DNA from: Roseibium salinum
GTDB lineage: Bacteria > Pseudomonadota > Alphaproteobacteria > Rhizobiales > Stappiaceae
DNA length: 64,000 nt
Direction: 5' to 3'
NCBI RefSeq assembly: GCF_026240905.1
Contig: NZ_JAPEVI010000003.1
Coordinates: forward strand, 2,046,001-2,110,000
Part shown: one piece after another, positions 1,054 to 16,167 of the stretch
Numbering within the stretch: position 1 is the first letter of the stretch
Layout: each line of letters begins with the position of its first letter
Notes under the pieces: generated by a model
What the model was told of the DNA's origin: nothing
The model's input: the letters and a program-made list of their open reading frames with translations, nothing else
The model's database searches: none
Made by a program: the position numbers and the translations under genes

Positions 1054-1989
1054 TTAGAAATATCCTTCGCGCTTTTTCTTTTCCATGGAGGCGCTTTCGT
1101 CCCTGTCGATCAGGCGGCCCTGACGTTCGGACGTGCGGGCTATAAGCATCTCGCGGACAATGGAGGGCAGCGTATCGGCATCCGACTCGATCGCACCGGT
1201 GAGCGGATAGCAGCCGAGCGTGCGGAAACGAACCATCTTTTCCTCAATCACTTCGCCGGGCTTAAGCTTCATGCGGTCGTCGTCGACCATGATCAGCATG
1301 CCGTCGCGTTCCACCACCGGACGCTTGGCGGCCAGATACAGCGGCACCATCGGAATGTTTTCCGTCAGGATGTACTGCCAGATGTCGAGCTCGGTCCAGT
1401 TGGACAGCGGAAAGGCGCGGATGCTCTCGCCCTTTGCCACGCGGGCATTGAAGAGGTTCCACAGTTCCGGACGCTGGTTCTTCGGGTCCCAGCCGTGATT
1501 GGCATTGCGGAAGGAGAACACGCGCTCCTTGGCACGGGATTTCTCCTCGTCGCGGCGCGCACCGCCGAAGGCCGCGTCGAAACCGTATTTGTTGAGCGCC
1601 TGTTTCAGCGCTTCGGTCTTCATGATGTGGGTGTGCACGGACGACCCGTGCTCGAACGGACTGATGTTCTTCTCCAGCCCTTCGGGGTTGGTGTAGACGA
1701 TCAGGTCCAGCCCGAGGCGGCTGGCTGTCTCGTCGCGGAACTTGATCATGTCCCGGAACTTCCAGGTCGTGTCCACATGCAGCAGCGGAAACGGCGGTTT
1801 TGAAGGATAGAACGCCTTCATCGCCAGATGCAGCATGACGCCGGAATCCTTGCCGATGGAATAGAGCATCACCGGGTTGGAGAATTCGGCCGCCACTTCG
1901 CGGATGATGTGGATGCTTTCCGCCTCAAGGCGCTTCAGATTGCTGAGGCGCTCCGGCGTGATCCCATGAGACTGAATATTCATGTTCAT
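1054..1989 (-). CDS. cysD: Sulfate adenylyltransferase small subunit CysD
   Basis: Catalytic ATP sulfurylase subunit and partner of CysN. The PP-loop SIGKDSG lies at residues 44-50 of the chosen protein. The conserved blocks [32 protein letters not shown] and the C-terminal KKKREGYF match the family from end to end. The frame is open 20 codons further upstream, to 2049. I prefer the ATG at 1989 because it gives 311 residues, close to the usual ~300, and has a GGA five bases upstream. ATGs at 1998 and 1983 are alternatives. It sits between cysQ and cysN in one leftward operon. Confidence 0.95.
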
Positions 1990-2055
1990 TTTTTCCATTT
2001 CGGCCGGCTGCCGGCCCTTTCCGAGATCTGTTTCCTGGCGTCCGCCCATCCGCGT

Positions 2056-2898
2056 TCAGGCAGCGGGAGCCAGATCGGGCAGCAGCGCCTTGGAGCTGAC
2101 TGCGACGAAATGCGGGTTGAGGAGATCGTTCTTGTGCGGATTTTCCGGCACCCGGTAGACGAAATCCGCATAGGATCCGGCCACGACCACCGACCCGCCG
2201 GCACCGCGCACCACGGCGTCTCCGGCGGCGATGTCCCACTGCATGGTCGGCGCAAGGCGCGGATAGAGGTCCGCCTTGCCGGCAGCCACCCAGCAAAGCT
2301 TCAGGGACGAGCCGACCGACAACTGCTCGGCCACCTGCAGGCGGCCGATAAGGTTTGCCGTTTCCTCCGACATGTGGGACCGGCTGGCAAGGACGCTCAG
2401 CCCTTGTGCCGGGGGCGTCCTGACGGCAATTGCCTCGCTGTCGGCCACGTCACCATTTGAAATCCGGCCCCTGAAGGCCTGCTGGCGCGTCCCGCCCTCG
2501 CCGGCCAGGGCACCGCCCCAGAAGATCTCGCCGAGCGCCGGCGCGGCCACGACGCCGAACACCGGGACGCCGTCTTCGATCAGGGCGATGTTGACCGTGA
2601 ACTCGCCGTTCTTCTTCAGGAACTCCTTGGTGCCGTCGAGCGGGTCGACGAGAAAATAGCGGTCGCCGACATTCGGAAGATGCCCGGCTTCGACGGATTC
2701 TTCCGCCACAACCGGCACGTCCGGAAACAGCTCCGCCAGACCTGCGAGGATGATTTTCTCCGCGGCGGCATCGGCCAGGGTGACAGGCGATCCGTCCGCC
2801 TTGCTTTCGACGTCAAACGGTTCGGCGTAAATTTTCATGATCTCCTCGCCGGCCTTAATTGCAAGCCGGTTCAAAAAGGATATCTGGTCTTCCGTCAT
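2056..2898 (-). CDS. cysQ: 3'(2'),5'-bisphosphate nucleotidase CysQ
   Basis: Inositol-monophosphatase-fold phosphatase that hydrolyses 3'-phosphoadenosine 5'-phosphate (PAP), the by-product of PAPS use, and so relieves product inhibition in sulfur assimilation. Metal-binding motifs are present: EES at about 66-68, VDPLDGTKEF at 84-93 and WDIAAGDAVVRGAGG near the C-terminus. The ATG at 2898 is preferred over the TTG one codon upstream, since GGAG lies five bases before the ATG. It is the first gene of a cysQ-cysD-cysN operon; the 280 bp upstream hold its promoter, though I identify no specific operator there. Confidence 0.93.
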   Translation of the reverse strand: MTEDQISFLNRLAIKAGEEIMKIYAEPFDVESKADGSPVTLADAAAEKIILAGLAELFPDVPVVAEESVEAGHLPNVGDRYFLVDPLDGTKEFLKKNGEFTVNIALIEDGVPVFGVVAAPALGEIFWGGALAGEGGTRQQAFRGRISNGDVADSEAIAVRTPPAQGLSVLASRSHMSEETANLIGRLQVAEQLSVGSSLKLCWVAAGKADLYPRLAPTMQWDIAAGDAVVRGAGGSVVVAGSYADFVYRVPENPHKNDLLNPHFVAVSSKALLPDLAPAA

Positions 2899-3180
2899 CA
2901 ACGCTCCAACTCGTTCAATTTTCGAAATAATTTCCTGCAGCTCCCCTTCCGGGGCATGCCGCTAAATAGAAAGAAAAAAATATGTCAATTCAAGGAATGG
3001 TGTTCCACGAAATCTTCGGAAATGAAAACGGTTGAGGCAGTCTGTTGGCAGCACAAGTCTTTTTTTCCGGACGCGGCGCAGCCTTGTGGCATGGATTCAC
3101 GGATTGGCAAGGCATTCCTTGCTAAGTTCGGCGGATGTTTGACAGCCATCCTATGATCGATAGCAAGAGACGAGACGACA

Positions 3181-3678
3181 ATGCCGGACACCAAACCAGT
3201 CGCTGAGCAGCGCCAGACAGCGGATGACGCTGCCCCGGCACAGCGCGCGCGCCGGGCACGCGTGTTCAAGAAGGGAAAGATGGTCTTCCAGGACGGGCTC
3301 CGGTCAATCCCCTGCCTTGTCCGGAACATTTCCGACGGCGGCGCCCTTTTGGAATTCGAACAGGCCTACATGCTGCCGAAGGAATTCGACCTGCATATCG
3401 ACCTGGAAGATTACGAAGTCACCTGCGAGCGCCGCTGGGAAGACGGCCTGCGCTGCGGTGTGGCGTTTGTCGGCGAAAAGCGCCCGACCGGCAAAGAGCG
3501 CGTGCAAGTGCTGCAAAGCTCCGAAGAACCCCTGCTGAACGCCCCCAACGAGCGCATGGAAGCCCCTGACGCCTTCCTGGCCCGCATCCGCCCTGAAAAC
3601 GCCCCACATCCCAGTGAGCCGGTGCGCCGCACACGGCCGGAGGGCTCCGGCAAGCCGACATTCGGCAAGAGGCGGTAG
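3181..3678 (+). CDS. PilZ-domain protein
   Basis: A 165-residue protein with a PilZ fold at about residues 20-100. Visible features are the basic RARRARVFKKG stretch resembling the c-di-GMP-binding RxxxR element, SDGGALLEF resembling the (D/N)xSxxG motif, and a terminal beta strand CGVAFVG. The remaining ~65 residues are Pro/Arg-rich and look disordered. PilZ proteins are usually c-di-GMP receptors, and the gene converges on a GGDEF/EAL gene 25 bp away, which supports that role. The output partner is not visible. The start has a weak GAGACGAG ribosome site. Confidence 0.85.
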   Translation: MPDTKPVAEQRQTADDAAPAQRARRARVFKKGKMVFQDGLRSIPCLVRNISDGGALLEFEQAYMLPKEFDLHIDLEDYEVTCERRWEDGLRCGVAFVGEKRPTGKERVQVLQSSEEPLLNAPNERMEAPDAFLARIRPENAPHPSEPVRRTRPEGSGKPTFGKRR

Positions 3679-3702
3679 AAGCGGCCGGTCCTGCGGACAG
3701 CT

Positions 3703-5732
3703 TCAGCGCGACCCGACGAGCGCACTCTCCGGGAGAATCTCCGCATTCGCGTTCTCCTGTACCGCCACGTCGATGTCGAACGGCATCGGATGGTCGATCG
3801 CGAAGCCCTGCACAAAGTCGACCGCGATTGAGCGCAGCGCCAGGAGATGTTCGTAGGTCTCGACGAATTCCGCGATCGTCTTCTTGCCCGTCAGATGCGC
3901 GATCTTGTTGATCATGTCGATGGTCAGCATGTCGGACTTGTCGTCCAGAATGCCGCGCACGAAGCTGCCGTCTATCTTGACGAAATCGACCGGCAGACGC
4001 TTGAGATAGGACAGCGAGGACATGCCGACGCCGAAGTCGTCCAGCGCAAACCGGCAACCGAGTTCACGCAGCGTGTCCATGAAGACGATCGCCTCGTCGA
4101 AATTGGCGATCGCGCTGGTCTCGGTAAGCTCGAAACACAGGGCGGACGGCGGCACGCCGGAGCGGGTCAGTTCGCGGCGCACGTAGTCCAGAAAGCTCTC
4201 GTCGGTCAGGGTCAGGCCGCTGAGATTGATCGCGTAGGTATCGCGGCCGTGCGGATCTCTGCGCCGGATGATCTCGAGCGCCTTGCGCACCACCCAGCGG
4301 TCGATCAGCGGCATTAGCCCGAAGCGCTCGGCGGCCGGGATGAATTCCCCCGGAGCAATCAGCGCACCGTCTTCCTTCAGGCGAACCAGGATTTCGAAAT
4401 GGCTGAACCGCCCGGACGGCGCCGCCGCGGGCGCGATTGCCTGGGCGAACAGACAGAACCTGTCCTGCTCAAGCGCCCGGTGCAATCGCTGGACCCAGCT
4501 CAGACTGTTGGCGAAATGAGACTGCTGGGCGTCCTCGCTCGTATAGACGTGAACCCGGTTGCGCCCTTTTTCCTTGGCGATATAGCAGGCAACGTCGGCG
4601 GCGCGGAGCGTTTCGGTGAACGAGAAAATCCGGTCTCCGAGCAGCACGACGCCAATGCTGGCCGTCACCGCGTAGCGCAGGCCCTCCCACGAGAAATCGA
4701 AAGTCTCCACGATCTTGCGCAGCCTGTGCGCGGTCGCCTGAGCCTCCTCGTGCGGGCAGTCGGGCAGGACCAGGCCGAACTCATCGCCGCCGAGCCGTGC
4801 AAGCAGGGCGGTGGGCGGAAGTGCGGCGGTAAGCTCGCCGGCAACACCATTCAGCAGATGATCGCCCACGGCATGGCCGCCGGTATCGTTGATCGTCTTG
4901 AACTGATCGAGATCGAGAAAGATCACGGCGTGTTGTGTGTCCCCGGATCTCAGCGTTTCTCTCAGGCTTCGCTCGAACAGACGCCGATTGGGCAGTCCGG
5001 TGAGCGCATCGTGATTGGCGCTCCAGGAGAGCTTGCCCTCGATCGAGCGACGGTGTTTCAGGAAGCTGTTGAGCCGCCAGATCGTAAGTGCGATGAAAAC
5101 CGCAGCCAGGAGCAGGTTCGCCCCGAGCAGCAGCCCCTGGACGACCCGGCTGCCCTCGCCGAGGCTGTCGGAGAATTCTCTCGCCAGCGGGGAAATCTGC
5201 ACGTCGAGCCGGTCCAGCGTAGCCAACAGATGCGCTCGCCTTGACGGGGTCAGCCCGGCCGGATCGCCAATGCTGCCGGCAAGCTTCTCAAGTTCATGCA
5301 GGTAGACTTCGGCATTGCGCCAGGCCTCGATGGAGTCCGCCATATGCGGGAACCACCTGAAATTCTCGAAGAGCATGATGACCCCGGGAATGTCGTCCGG
5401 GTGAAGTCCCCCTTGAGAAAGCCTTCCACAGCGCGACTTCTGTCCGGCGGCTCGGCTTCCAGCGCCAGCCTCGCCTCCCGGTCGCCCAGGGGGACGGCAA
5501 TCGCCTGGCGATAGCGCTGAAGGAAAGCGGGATCGGCTGAGTTGATATAACGGTCGAGATAATAGATCGCTTCGCGCTGCCCCTTGGACCAGAGGCTTTC
5601 GCCGGTCACATAGGCCCTCAGCGAGGAGACGACCTGCAGGCTGAAGGACGCAAGCAGGGTCTGAGCGACGATAATGGCAACAAATGGCCACGCAACAGCG
5701 ACCAACCTCAGCCTTGAACTGTCGGCCCGCAT
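3703..5732 (-). pseudogene. Membrane GGDEF-EAL c-di-GMP turnover protein, frameshifted
   Basis: Reconstructed as about 676 residues: an N-terminal membrane helix, a ~170-residue periplasmic sensor region, a second helix near residue 200, a GGDEF domain with intact LGGDEFG (about 315-319), then an EAL domain. The EAL signature is FEILVRL rather than EALVRL, but DDFGVGMSSLSYLKRLP, a KID motif and AEFVET are kept. The N-terminal part (ATG at 5732) and the rest are in different frames. The shift falls near 5398-5403, where a three-base C run in the coding strand would need four (GDFT joining PDDIPG). The gene is either truncated or mis-sequenced. If intact it would make and/or degrade c-di-GMP at the inner membrane. 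Confidence 0.88.
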
Positions 5733-11824: not shown

Positions 11825-12369
11825 ACGGTTGATCCGCTTTGCAGGCGTTCCATTTCGGACCCGTAGCTCGCAAGAACGTGCAGTTTCAATTTAGCAACTA
11901 ATTCCAATTTTAGCTGAGACCCTGCCACCTTATGATATGCGACAAGAGACTGCCGTTGTCTCCCTTTGCTTTGTCGTGCGCGGCCTTCTAGAGGTATCAT
12001 GGACTGGGAGTTGGGTTACTAATACGCGTTCCCGATGCGCACACTCTAACGGGTTGTTTCTGGCTAGGACAACCAGTGCCGCATCCCCTGGGGTAAAATG
12101 GCCCGCCTATCGAAAAGGCCAGGAGAATTTCAAATTTCTCATACTGGAAAAGCCGAACAATTTGTTCTATGTTTGTTCTCATCCATGAGGACATACAGTT
12201 GTTGCCACCCGAATCTTCTAATAACGCCGACTTCATAAAATGTCGCCGGCATACTCAAGCACATGTTGGCTATCACACTCTCAATTTCAGCACTGACAAC
12301 TGTTGCTTGAATTCACAATCTGCAAATCAAAAGTGGTGGACTCGTAACGAATCTCGTATTTCGTCTCCT
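11825..12369. other. Long leader of the accessory island
   Basis: About 545 bp. Short frames on both strands lack ribosome sites and recognisable domains. Base composition shifts to AT-rich near 11870. An SOS-type box sits at 12164-12178, and a short hairpin GGTTGT/ACAACC around 12053-12074. I looked for a copy of the tRNA-Gln 3' end here, as expected for an attachment site, and found none. Confidence 0.45.
12164..12178. promoter_or_regulatory. Alphaproteobacterial-type LexA (SOS) box
   Basis: GTTC-N7-GTTC, reading GTTCTATGTTTGTTC. It matches the direct-repeat LexA site known in alphaproteobacteria, and the other strand (GAACAAACATAGAAC) has the A-rich spacer typical of real sites. It is immediately preceded by a GAAC half-site that makes GAACAATTTGTTC. 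It lies about 190 bp before the HD-protein start and suggests DNA-damage induction. Spacing to the gene is long, so the promoter must be upstream with a long leader. Confidence 0.55.
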
Positions 12370-13767
12370 ATGACAGTTCAGCGCATTCGTGATCCCTTAC
12401 ACAATTTGATCGAGTTCAAGGCGGATAGTGAACTTGAAAACAATCTTTGGCGCGTCCTGCAAACTCGACCGTTTCAACGCTTACGTCGCGTCAAACAGCT
12501 TGGATTTTCTGAGCTCGTGTACCCAGGGGCAAGCCACACCCGTTTTGCGCACAGCGTCGGTGTATTCCATACTGCTAGACAATTGATGGAGGTCGTGAGG
12601 TCCGCCGGCCCGCGAAAAGATAGCCGAGAGAACTGTGCCTTGGCAGCCGCACTTGTTCACGACCTAGGACATGGCCCCTTTAGCCATGCCTTCGAAACGG
12701 TTGGAAAAAGGCTTAGCCTCAAACTTGCTGACCATGAACACGTGAGCGATTTACTTATTCGGGACGGCGAAGTTGCAGACATCTTGAATGAGATGGGAAG
12801 CGGCTTCGCAATTGATGTCGCTGATATGGTCAAAAAAGAGGGTAAAATTACCGTTCACAATGCCGTGGTTTCGAGTCAGTTTGATGCTGACCGGCTTGAC
12901 TATATGCGGCGAGACCGTTTGATGTCAGGAAGCCAACATGCGGCAATCGACTTCGAGTGGCTAATTGCTAACTTAGAAATAGCTTCGATCCCCACTGGTG
13001 TTGATGATGAACAGACAGGAACTGTTGACACTTTTGTGATCGGCCCCAAAGCCATTCACGCTGCGGAAGCCTACGTTCTTGGCCTATTTCAATTATATCC
13101 AACGGTTTATTTCCATAAAACTACGCGTGGCGCAGAGAAAATTTTTACAGAACTATTGATCCGCATAGTACACCTCACAAGAGATGAGAGCATTGAACAA
13201 ATTGGCTTGCCAGTTCAGCATCCTCTCGTCCAATTTGCTCGTGACCCTGAAAATCTAGATATCGCTCTTTGTCTAGACGATTCTGTTGTTTGGGGTGCGC
13301 TCTCCTTGATGGCAGAAGCGAAGGACAATTTGATAAGATCCTTTGCACTTCGACTGCGTGACCGGAAACTCTTCAAGTGTGTTGATATTCGGGCTCGTAT
13401 TAGTCACGAATTCGACCCTGAAAGCACTGGCGATATTGAGAAAAAAGCAAAAATCGAAACCTGCTGCGCAAAAGTAAACGAAAAATTAACCGAATGGAAC
13501 CAGCGTGAATCTGGGGAGATTCATCGTATCCTTGTCGATGAAGCCGAACGCTCTCCGTATAAGGATGGCGCCGGATCAATAGGGCCAACTGAACGAATTA
13601 ATGTACGCACCGACGGAGGCAAACTCGTAGATTTGAAGCAACGTTCACGCGTTGTCGCTAATCTCGACGAATTCAAGCTTTTCCGTGCGTATCATGACCC
13701 CGGTGATCTTGACGCCTTGTCGACTATCAACGCAATTATTCAAGGGGAGGTCCAAGCATGTCACTGA
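12370..13767 (+). CDS. HD-domain phosphohydrolase, SAMHD1/YwfO (COG1078)-like
   Basis: 465 residues. The dNTPase/SAMHD1-like core opens with IRDPLHNLIEF and FQRLRRVKQLG. The metal-binding HD set is complete: H61 in TRFAHSVGVFH, H97-D98 in LVHDLGHGPFSHAFE, and the downstream Asp in FDADRLDYMRRD (171-182). This family hydrolyses nucleotides, often dNTPs to nucleoside and triphosphate. The stop overlaps the YwgA-like gene by 10 bp, as in the Bacillus ywfO-ywgA pairing known to me. The ATG at 12370 is chosen by family N-terminus; no ribosome site is visible and the frame is open upstream to 12169. Codon use is AT-richer than the flanks, indicating acquisition. Confidence 0.9.
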   Translation: MTVQRIRDPLHNLIEFKADSELENNLWRVLQTRPFQRLRRVKQLGFSELVYPGASHTRFAHSVGVFHTARQLMEVVRSAGPRKDSRENCALAAALVHDLGHGPFSHAFETVGKRLSLKLADHEHVSDLLIRDGEVADILNEMGSGFAIDVADMVKKEGKITVHNAVVSSQFDADRLDYMRRDRLMSGSQHAAIDFEWLIANLEIASIPTGVDDEQTGTVDTFVIGPKAIHAAEAYVLGLFQLYPTVYFHKTTRGAEKIFTELLIRIVHLTRDESIEQIGLPVQHPLVQFARDPENLDIALCLDDSVVWGALSLMAEAKDNLIRSFALRLRDRKLFKCVDIRARISHEFDPESTGDIEKKAKIETCCAKVNEKLTEWNQRESGEIHRILVDEAERSPYKDGAGSIGPTERINVRTDGGKLVDLKQRSRVVANLDEFKLFRAYHDPGDLDALSTINAIIQGEVQACH

Positions 13768-14276
13768 GTGATTCCAAAAAAGTTGCAGCTATTGTTGCGG
13801 ATGCCGGTGGACGCGTTGTTGGGCGGACCCGTCTGCAAAAAATCGCGTATCTTCTCACGGTAACCGGAATGGAAGACGGATTGTCTTTTTATTACAAACA
13901 TTACGGTCCTTACTGTGAAGACTTAGCTAGCGCAGCAAGCTTGGGAGCACTTTTTGGCGAGTTGAAGGAGACTGAGTCTCCGACAACGTGGGGCGGAACA
14001 TACTCAATCTTCGAAGCAGATAGACCACACGACCTCGCTCCTGCTTCTGATGTCCGACGTCAATTTGCCAGCACAGCTGCAAGGTCGGATTCCATTGTTC
14101 TTGAACTCGCAGCTACCGCCGTCTTTCTCGCGAAAGAGGGATTTGACGACCCTTGGGCAGAAACAGCCCGTAGAAAGCCCGAAAAAGCTATTGGGAACCG
14201 TCTCGCAGATGCCAAGAACCTTTTGAAAGCCCTCTCAGAAATTGAAACCCCACGTCCACTACCCAATATTGCGTAA
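13758..14276 (+). CDS. YwgA-like / Panacea-like protein partner of the HD phosphohydrolase
   Basis: 172 residues. The N-terminal half (GRTRLQKIAYLLTVTGMED, then SFYYKHYGPYCEDLA) is the signature of the YwgA/SocA-like group, whose members resemble Panacea antitoxin domains. The rest is helical with no catalytic motif. A strong GGGGAGG precedes the ATG, and the first 10 bp lie inside the HD gene, so translation is coupled. A likely role is binding or restraining the HD enzyme, or sensing a trigger. That role is inference. Confidence 0.75.
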   Translation: MSLSDSKKVAAIVADAGGRVVGRTRLQKIAYLLTVTGMEDGLSFYYKHYGPYCEDLASAASLGALFGELKETESPTTWGGTYSIFEADRPHDLAPASDVRRQFASTAARSDSIVLELAATAVFLAKEGFDDPWAETARRKPEKAIGNRLADAKNLLKALSEIETPRPLPNIA

Positions 14277-14614
14277 CAGTGTCGCGTCGGACTGTTGGCT
14301 TGACGACGCGAACAATACGGAAGCGCGAGAGCACTTGGAACTGAGGGCTTTTCCGGGATTAAGTGGGATTGAGCGGTATTTCGCGATTTTCTGCTGTTTC
14401 TGAAAGAGCCAAGCGAAAACAGGGGCGCAATTTCAAGGTGGAAACTGAAACACTATTCTTGAAGCGAGTTCCCACCTCGGCAAAAATCGCGGAGTTCTGC
14501 AGGATTGGGGAAACTCGACCAGTCTGAGGGGGCATCTGAGGTGGGAACACATAAAGTGCCAACTCACAGTTGATTTTGCGTCTGGCGGACTTCGATGGAA
14601 ATTCCGTCACCTTG
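14277..14614. other. Island intergenic region with a long inverted repeat
   Basis: 338 bp between the convergent YwgA-like and Ntn-hydrolase genes. No supported gene: a 108-codon minus-strand frame lacks domains and overlaps the neighbour. It contains an 11-bp perfect inverted repeat, GTTCCCACCTC at 14468-14478 and GAGGTGGGAAC at 14538-14548, with a 59-base spacer. This may be the remnant of a mobile element end or a structured RNA. Confidence 0.45.
14468..14548. repeat. 11-bp inverted repeat with 59-bp spacer
   Basis: Arms GTTCCCACCTC and GAGGTGGGAAC are exact reverse complements. Neither arm looks like a known insertion-sequence end, and no T tract follows on either strand, so it is not a standard terminator. 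Function is unknown. Confidence 0.6.
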
Positions 14615-15547
14615 TCAACACAGCTTGTCATCAGGATCAGATGGAAGTTGTGAAAGCTCCTTATTAATATCCTCCTCCAAGCCATCGAGATTGGGTTTGG
14701 GTGCTCCCTTTTGTGCCGCCTCTAACATCTTTTTTAGGTGGGGTGTCACGTGCCGCATAAGGACATCTGACGTTGCGGACATATCCCATCCCCTCATTAT
14801 GGACGGTACGTTCGAAGAGGCAGAAGCACTTTTATTGTTGGCATAGTACAGTTGGCTTCCTCCGCCCTTCTGCAAGCCCTTCTTGCTGTTTCGCCATATG
14901 ACAATGCTGCCCGGCCCAACGGTTTTCCTTTCTTCTGTGTGTGAGAAGTAGGCAACTCGCGCTAATTGATCCGCCACAGTGACAGCAGAAATTTTCTTTT
15001 TATTGTAAGCATTTACAAGACTGAGAGTTGGACGCACCCAGTCTGTTTGTCTCTCCAGGCAAGCGGCTCCCGATCCCGCAAGTCCCACAGGAGGTGGGAT
15101 TCTCAACGGTTGAAGAGTCTCCCCCATGATGTGGTTGCCACGGCGAAAAACGTAGCCGGTCTGAGAGTAGACAAGATCAATGGTGTAAGCGCACGGTCTA
15201 TCGCCCACGAATGCAGCTATCAAAAATCTGTGCTGTCGATCCCTCACATCGCGAAAACTGTTGAGGTGTGGCGGAAACTCTCGCTTCATCGCGTCTGCAA
15301 TCACATCTAGCATCTGCTCAATTGGATGATGCCGGCCACGTAGAACATTGCTAATCCATTGCGACGGCTGATTTTCTAAAACAGTTGCTCCGAGCCCAGC
15401 ATAGCCAATTATCGCAATCCCATCGAAGACATCGACAACCGTCGCTTTAACCGCATCATCTTTCGGTGGTCCACGTTCAAAGGAAAGCCGTCTGTCTGCG
15501 ACCAACCAAATTGACCCCCTAGTTTGAATGGTTAGGATCAAAGTCAT
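14615..15547 (-). CDS. Orphan proteasome/HslV-like Ntn hydrolase
   Basis: 310 residues. After Met removal the chain would begin with Thr1. Counting from it, Asp17 (in WLVADRRLSFE) and Lys33 (in DDAVKATVVD) fall exactly at the catalytic positions of proteasome beta subunits and HslV. FDGIAIIGYAGLGAT matches the Gly47 region, and GLAGSGAACLE resembles the serine-bearing loop. It therefore looks like an N-terminal-nucleophile hydrolase needing no propeptide. The last ~70 residues (rich in Lys, Glu, Asp) extend beyond a normal beta subunit. No ATPase, alpha subunit or chaperone gene is nearby. Substrate is unknown. It lies in the AT-richer island; the ribosome site is weak. Confidence 0.72.
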   Translation of the reverse strand: MTLILTIQTRGSIWLVADRRLSFERGPPKDDAVKATVVDVFDGIAIIGYAGLGATVLENQPSQWISNVLRGRHHPIEQMLDVIADAMKREFPPHLNSFRDVRDRQHRFLIAAFVGDRPCAYTIDLVYSQTGYVFRRGNHIMGETLQPLRIPPPVGLAGSGAACLERQTDWVRPTLSLVNAYNKKKISAVTVADQLARVAYFSHTEERKTVGPGSIVIWRNSKKGLQKGGGSQLYYANNKSASASSNVPSIMRGWDMSATSDVLMRHVTPHLKKMLEAAQKGAPKPNLDGLEEDINKELSQLPSDPDDKLC

Positions 15548-15644: not shown

Positions 15645-15719
15645 TGGCTGGGGTGGCAGGATTCGAACCTGCGCATGGCGGTACCAAAAACCGCTGCCTT
15701 ACCGCTTGGCTACACCCCA
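15645..15719 (-). tRNA. tRNA-Gln (TTG)
   Basis: 75 bases including encoded CCA. Acceptor stem TGGGGTG pairs with CACCCCA, discriminator G. The anticodon arm GCGGT/ACCGC encloses loop TTTTGGT, giving anticodon TTG. The T arm GCAGG-TTCGAAT-CCTGC is canonical. Transcribed leftward, so its 3' end faces the accessory island, the usual orientation for integration at a tRNA. Confidence 0.96.
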
Positions 15720-16090: not shown

Positions 16091-16167
16091 CGGAGTGTAG
16101 CGCAGCCTGGTAGCGCACCTCGTTCGGGACGAGGGGGTCGGAGGTTCGAATCCTCTCACTCCGACCA
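16091..16167 (+). tRNA. tRNA-Pro (CGG)
   Basis: 77 bases with encoded CCA. Acceptor CGGAGTG pairs with CACTCCG, discriminator A. The anticodon stem CCTCG/CGAGG encloses TTCGGGA, giving anticodon CGG. D arm and T arm (GGAGG-TTCGAAT-CCTCT) are canonical. Confidence 0.96.

Follow-up and report, generated by a model that had tools for sequence, protein, structure and literature searches.

An HD-domain gene co-inherited with an overlapping YwgA-like gene in Roseibium salinum: a candidate anti-phage effector-regulator module

Why is the gene of a predicted deoxynucleoside triphosphate (dNTP) hydrolase tied to that of a small YwgA-like protein, and what would the small protein do? The question is raised by a 64,000-nt stretch of the Roseibium salinum genome (assembly GCF_026240905.1, contig NZ_JAPEVI010000003.1, positions 2,046,001 to 2,110,000; "the window" in the following), in which the gene for a protein with an HD domain overlaps that of a small partner. 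A preliminary description of this DNA had proposed a dNTP-depleting effector that is restrained or triggered by the partner, an interpretation which our analysis partly supports. We tentatively read the pair as a two-gene module of effector and regulator that is mobile and most likely directed against phages, and in which the partner would hold a dNTP triphosphohydrolase (dNTPase) until infection releases it. No description of an HD/YwgA-like pair was found in the literature searched, outside which most subscription papers fall.

Conservation and co-inheritance of the pair

Loci were gathered with the profile of the partner alone, in a genome scan (80 of 95 relatives) and a viral scan (3), giving 83 loci. 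In 77 of these an HD gene or a piece of one lies upstream on the same strand, and among the remaining six, four (L018, L049, L053 and L063) have their partner match no more than 400 bp from the end of a contig. Conservation beyond close relatives, which had been set beforehand as a test of the idea, was found both in these 77 loci and in a pair of Priestia. The 10-bp overlap described for the window was confirmed (Table 1), and a likely ribosome-binding site within the HD gene is spaced 7 nt from the ATG of the partner. With start codons of the relatives assigned by an automatic rule, 60 of the 77 pairs overlap, most commonly by 4 bp, 15 are 1–14 bp apart, and the two that are about 200 bp apart (L061 and L066) contain HD fragments. 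Split or partial HD genes occur at six loci (L019, L026, L037, L061, L066 and L076).

The trees of the two proteins mirror each other. Across 69 pairs (68 of the 83 loci plus the window, after removal of split, partial and duplicate loci), their distances correlate with r 0.934, of which shared ancestry gives some part, compared to a highest value of 0.25 in 2000 permutations. Chance adjacency of two genes was rejected, as 77 of the 83 loci are paired and the trees are mirrored. An all-against-all comparison of open reading frames (ORFs) of at least 90 amino acids (aa) revealed no third gene that recurs at a fixed place near the pair among the clusters listed (60 of 133); the widest other cluster among them, with antisense frames of the pair's own DNA excluded, spans 11 loci at variable distances.

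Families and folds of the two proteins

The HD protein matches two Pfam families above their cut-offs, PF01966 (HD; E 9.5e-10) and PF19276 (HD_assoc_2; E 2e-07). Its best solved relative by sequence is EF1143 (2o6i; E 3.1e-37, residues 6–337), followed by 2q14, 2hek, 9mr6 (a fungal SAMHD1) and animal SAMHD1 chains. EF1143 was again the first match when the fold was modeled for the HD relative of locus L062, including entries with dGTP and dATP or dGTP and dTTP.

Residue conservation was analyzed in 73 aligned proteins, namely that of the window and those of 72 of the 83 loci. Some partial proteins (e.g., L066 and L076) were kept, and six loci without an HD gene as well as five with two HD pieces (L019, L026, L031, L037 and L061) were excluded. 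The complete metal site that had been recognized from the letters, H61, H97-D98 and a downstream Asp that proved to be D174, is present in 71–72 of the 73 proteins at each position, the exceptions being gaps. The H106/E109 dyad as well as R58, H101, Y178 and D182 are likewise kept in 71–72 of the 73, with gaps as the exceptions save for one Tyr at position 101, and several of these residues fall in a motif D174-R175-xx-Y178-xxx-D182. Gln occurs at position 31 in 43 of the proteins, Asn in 16, and Glu and Asp in four each; this position aligns to an Asn of EF1143 and matches by spacing D137 of SAMHD1, a residue that serves in reading guanine. By motif spacing, we take H61, H97, D98, D174, H101, E109 and H122 to correspond, in this order, to H167, H206, D207, D311, H210, D218 and H233 of the human antiviral protein SAMHD1. 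The first four of these SAMHD1 residues bind its metal, the other three are further residues proposed to be catalytic, and D137 belongs to the AL1 activator site (PMC7045340). EF1143 itself is described as a dNTPase that is active as a tetramer (PMC12042053). The sequence match, the kept residues and the fold of the L062 relative agree and support a protein of the EF1143/SAMHD1-type dNTPase class, as already supposed when a nucleotide or dNTP hydrolase was proposed, so that dNTPase activity is the natural prediction for the HD protein.

The partner had been called YwgA-like and Panacea-like. The first of these held, as the family profile finds the gene that follows the HD gene of Priestia (68.9 bits). 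Panacea membership was rejected: a Pfam search of the partner gave no match at E ≤ 1, and thus none to Panacea (PF13274), and its fold, a single domain, matches the C-terminal domain of DarG (PDB 7yk3). Weak profile matches likewise fall on the C-terminal part of DarG, whose PADLOC 2023 model reaches 23.9 bits over residues 13–60. The resemblance to an antitoxin domain stands, the domain being that of DarG rather than Panacea. The DarG C-terminal domain occludes the active site of DarT (PMC11481870). No model of PADLOC 2023 or NCBIfam 2026 fits either protein well; in PADLOC, no described system gave a full-length match, and a dGTPase model reached 35.3 bits over HD residues 18–111. A type II toxin-antitoxin system, in which the first protein would be toxic and the second would bind and neutralize it, is resembled in the layout of the genes, their co-inheritance and the fold of the partner.

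Occurrence, neighborhood and genomic setting

Conservation analysis showed that the pair is patchily distributed. The partner protein has matches in six of 101 relatives, and within the genus it was found in only two of 45 genomes, that of the window and G005, whose DNA matches window positions 12321–14012 at 71%; the tRNA region, in comparison, is matched widely in the genus. The partner profile matches 13 of 385 genomes of the class, several of these matches being distant or lying in ORFs of DarG length. Organisms that carry the pair include many Alphaproteobacteria as well as two Desulfovibrio isolates. Among metagenome-assembled genomes (MAGs), whose assignments can be wrong, it occurs in Beta- and Gammaproteobacteria, Polyangiaceae, Desulfobacteraceae, Marinimicrobia, Rhodothermales and Planctomycetes; in MAGs of cyanobacteria and spirochaetes, it occurs with an HD gene that is split or fragmentary. 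In Priestia megaterium (L183), an HD gene with 298 bits is followed 23 bp later by the 169-aa gene found with the partner profile (E 1.2e-20 among 407 ORFs); we presume that these are the genes named ywfO and ywgA.

By tblastn, the partner was found neither in 72,556 plasmid records nor in 50,697 phage records. The pair was found on three IMG/VR contigs, where 53 surrounding proteins match 21 PHROG families, including integrases, repressors, primase and methyltransferases, with no structural families among the described PHROG matches. A separate locus (L136:3396-4187, minus strand) carries a 245-aa ORF with a YwgA-like domain, whose neighbors include, as judged from their sequences, genes for a ParB-like protein and a serine recombinase; no HD match was found near it.

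A check for defence genes around the pair had been proposed. At 42 of the 83 loci, those with at least 4.3 kb on each side, 292 neighboring proteins of 110 to 1100 aa match 100 + 55 PADLOC families (two batches, E ≤ 1e-10), compared to 5 + 12 families for 279 proteins of 40 control regions at the same threshold. These counts run high, since many models may recognize a single protein, and as families are not proteins the contrast, positive as it is, should be read qualitatively. The control regions were chosen by hand, with round coordinates, from 21 class genomes other than those of the 42 loci, and 16 of the 40 come from the genus of the window. Among the 25 families listed for each batch, the neighbors of the pair include methyltransferase and specificity subunits of type I restriction-modification systems, type II methyltransferases, a IIG enzyme, mad2 and mad3 (MADS), DpdJ, DpdE, ZorD, DRT, PDC-M03, PDC-S68 and BilB. 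The full list for the control comprises mad3, mad8, AriA, PbeA, IetA, TRIP13, PDC-S07, a CARF protein and an ATPase-Toprim protein; mad3 is no rarer there, with seven proteins compared to three near the pair (batch 1).

Three neighborhoods deserve separate mention. In G005, a DRT9 reverse transcriptase lies next upstream of the pair on the same strand (L104:10793-12361; PADLOC E 3.4e-156). When it was scanned together with the 50 ORFs of the window, the pair included, 43 PADLOC families were matched at 1e-6, 37 of them by the transcriptase, and the other six include, among the matches listed, mad3, AriA, mad8 and two WYL models. At L074 (6586-13189), a YwgA-like protein without an HD protein is flanked by type III-like methylase and restriction genes (Pfam), in a region that follows C5-methyltransferase-like and Vsr-like ORFs (judged from sequence); the control domain may therefore serve other effectors. 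Finally, plasmids of Sinorhizobium, Labrenzia and Rhizobium (L178–L181, at about locus positions 1620–5410) carry a run of radical SAM, 3′-5′ exonuclease, AAA ATPase and HD genes, in which the HD protein (35–39% identity) is encoded by the last of the four genes and has no YwgA-like partner. Genes for Shedu, a DNA methylase, deazaguanine synthase, and ThiF or ABC-three-component systems lie near this run, which was present in all four opened of the 12 best plasmid matches and looks like another HD-based defence cassette.

In the window, the pair lies in a segment that is probably acquired (Table 1). As the preliminary description had noted, both genes are richer in AT than their surroundings: their coding G+C (GC) contents are 0.47 (HD, over a 532-codon frame) and 0.50 (partner), compared to about 0.62 for the whole window and 0.57–0.67 in 53 of the 55 remaining genes called by a simple script, the other two (0.48 and 0.50) adjoining the pair. 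The HD reading frame extends open upstream to 12169 (532 aa), and 12370 is the predicted start, since similarity to the relatives begins about there.

Table 1. Features of the HD/partner locus, in window positions
Feature	Position	Strand	Remarks
HD-domain protein gene	12370..13767	+	ATG at 12370, stop ends at 13767; 465 aa; predicted EF1143/SAMHD1-type deoxynucleotide triphosphohydrolase
Partner gene	13758..14276	+	172 aa; YwgA-like; DarG C-terminal domain fold (winged helix and helical part)
Overlap of HD and partner genes	13758..13767	+	10 bp
Likely partner ribosome-binding site, GGGGAGG	13744..13750	+	within HD gene; role inferred
AT-rich segment	12001..15600		GC 0.47-0.54 per kb compared to about 0.62; holds the pair and a reverse-strand 310-aa gene
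tRNA-Gln	15645-15719	-	adjoins AT-rich segment
tRNA-Pro	16091-16167	+	adjoins AT-rich segment

The 310-aa gene of the same segment (14618-15547, minus strand) is likewise AT-rich, has no Pfam match at E ≤ 0.01, and is absent from every other of the 45 genus genomes searched. Between it and the pair lies a dispersed two-part repeat (14323-14506; about 113 + 82 bp) that is matched in 15 of the 45 genus genomes including that of the window, often in several copies per genome. Its parts, which adjoin here, are about 220 bp apart elsewhere, and some of the copies are located close to that same tRNA region. The repeat is possibly the remnant of a mobile element; no structured RNA was found in its 14323-14440 portion (z −0.37 and 0.53).

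A proposed braked enzyme, rival readings and the known systems

An effector gene that comes first, a coupled small partner that comes second, their co-inheritance, the intact active site and the DarG-type fold of the partner are best read as pointing to an enzyme with a protein brake. The HD protein, when active, would strip the cell of dNTPs and thereby halt DNA replication of phage and host, and the translationally coupled partner would bind it and keep it inactive. Infection, sensed through a phage product, a nucleic acid or a shift in nucleotides, may then release or override the partner. By analogy, Clover is the nearest worked-out logic for a braked dNTPase. A more far-reaching version, which we regard as doubtful, would make a winged-helix protein like the DarG C-terminal domain both the lock and the infection sensor of a SAMHD1/EF1143-type dNTPase, in an anti-phage system that is widespread. 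The enzyme would be unlocked by DNA or a protein of the phage or by a shift in the nucleotide pool, and the control domain would have been reused for DarT, for the dNTPase and perhaps for type III restriction (L074).

Several results weigh against a braked anti-phage enzyme, in addition to the inflation of the family counts. HD matches of at least 100 bits were found in 13 of the 385 class genomes, with the partner adjoining in six and none in six; in G191, the enzyme is apparently split across two contigs with the partner beside its C-terminal piece. Two further pairs in the class score below 100 bits. Far more distant pairs seen in the class are L129, L130, L131, and L132 with the order reversed. 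L073 and L074 have a partner-like protein with no HD match within 10 kb, the HD genes opened in Paenibacillus and Bacteroides have no YwgA-like neighbor, and rhizobial plasmids carry HD relatives with other partners. On a tree of 81 HD proteins, with several long branches among its eight solo and four distant paired rows, the paired label needs four changes compared to a shuffled mean of 11.4, so that partners were gained or lost a few times. Outside the pair, the scan of the window gave generic PADLOC families only, among the matches listed. The partner has a net charge of −2 (family median −1, range −9 to 4) and is thus not acidic, so that mimicry of single-stranded DNA in the style of DarG is not suggested. 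A tandem-chain model of L062, built on an alignment of 28 rows, reached a predicted local distance difference test score (pLDDT) of 89.9 and a predicted template modeling score (pTM) of 0.79, values that, without an enzyme-alone baseline or inter-domain error, speak neither for nor against an interface.

The Priestia pair sits among ordinary metabolic genes (phosphate acetyltransferase, site-2 protease and YwhD) in a record labelled as a 410-kb plasmid. The gene ywfO is listed among those that co-evolve with polC (PMC3814617), and a YwfO-like protein is retained in the minimal cell Syn3.0 (PMC4993169). The Priestia setting and the link to polC argue against an exclusive role in defence, and together with the Syn3.0 protein they favor a housekeeping regulator of the dNTP pool, whose partner would tune hydrolysis in normal growth and whose alphaproteobacterial copies would be transferred metabolic genes. 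We consider this alternative unlikely, while granting it real weight: the partner is rare and patchy in the class and the genus, the neighbors of the pair are rich in defence models, and integrases are matched around the viral-contig copies. An effector and its brake are often tightly coupled, and this usual layout, together with the inhibitory nature of the nearest fold, the DarG C-terminal domain, speaks against a partner that acts as activator, such that the enzyme would be idle on its own and the winged-helix protein would switch it on after sensing the phage through a nucleic acid, a nucleotide or a protein; this too retains real weight, improbable as we hold it. In a further alternative, the HD protein would act on modified nucleotides, on a second messenger or on the ends of nucleic acids instead of dNTPs, the partner serving as its adaptor. 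This is in keeping with the varied chemistry of HD proteins (PMC8177086) and with the generic names that the solved relatives 2q14 and 2hek carry, and is quite improbable, as every EF1143/SAMHD1 pocket residue checked is kept.

Immunity by bacterial dNTPases must spare the host, and Clover provides one answer, an inhibitory nucleotide (PMC12265719). The braked pair appears to offer another, in which a protein with a toxin-antitoxin fold latches an enzyme of the EF1143/SAMHD1 rather than the Dgt branch. It would give the YwgA family a testable role and explain the adjacency of ywfO and ywgA in Bacillaceae. Like Clover, it consists of two genes, an HD triphosphohydrolase and a partner, located in defence islands, with the suggested logic of a restrained dNTPase. 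The defence dGTPase CloA carries H117-D118 with H126/E129, and CloB, whose mutation is toxic, is a nucleotidyltransferase that makes p3diT, the product that suppresses CloA (PMC12265719). The spacing from HD to dyad in CloA (+9, +12) equals that of the window protein. In contrast, CloA resembles Dgt-type dGTPases, whereas the window protein reaches only 36.1 bits with TIGR01353 (cut-off 152.35) and 18.5 and 14.3 bits with anti-phage dGTPase models (cut-offs 400 and 383); likewise, CloB is a Pol-beta-type nucleotidyltransferase and the partner here resembles the DarG C-terminal domain. Membership in Clover was therefore rejected.

With DarTG, the pair shares the DarG C-terminal domain fold of the partner, and differs in having an HD protein in place of a DarT neighbor, no macrodomain or NADAR domain, and a partner that is not acidic. 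Panacea/SocA (DUF4065) is similar as an idea, a small partner of varied effectors, in contrast to a partner here without Pfam match; in a term search, the main text of the Panacea paper (PMC8832971) contained neither HD domain nor phosphohydrolase, dNTP or YwgA. EF1143 of Enterococcus faecalis (PDB 2o6i, 3irh and 4lrl), for which we know of no need for a protein partner, and SAMHD1 have the same fold (seen in the relative) and the same metal and substrate residues; a difference is that 128 C-terminal residues of the window protein fall outside the aligned region. The ywfO-ywgA genes of Bacillaceae, as seen in Priestia, belong to the same two families in the same order and adjacency; there they stand 23 bp apart among ordinary genes, whereas the alphaproteobacterial copies mostly overlap, are patchily distributed and have defence genes nearby.
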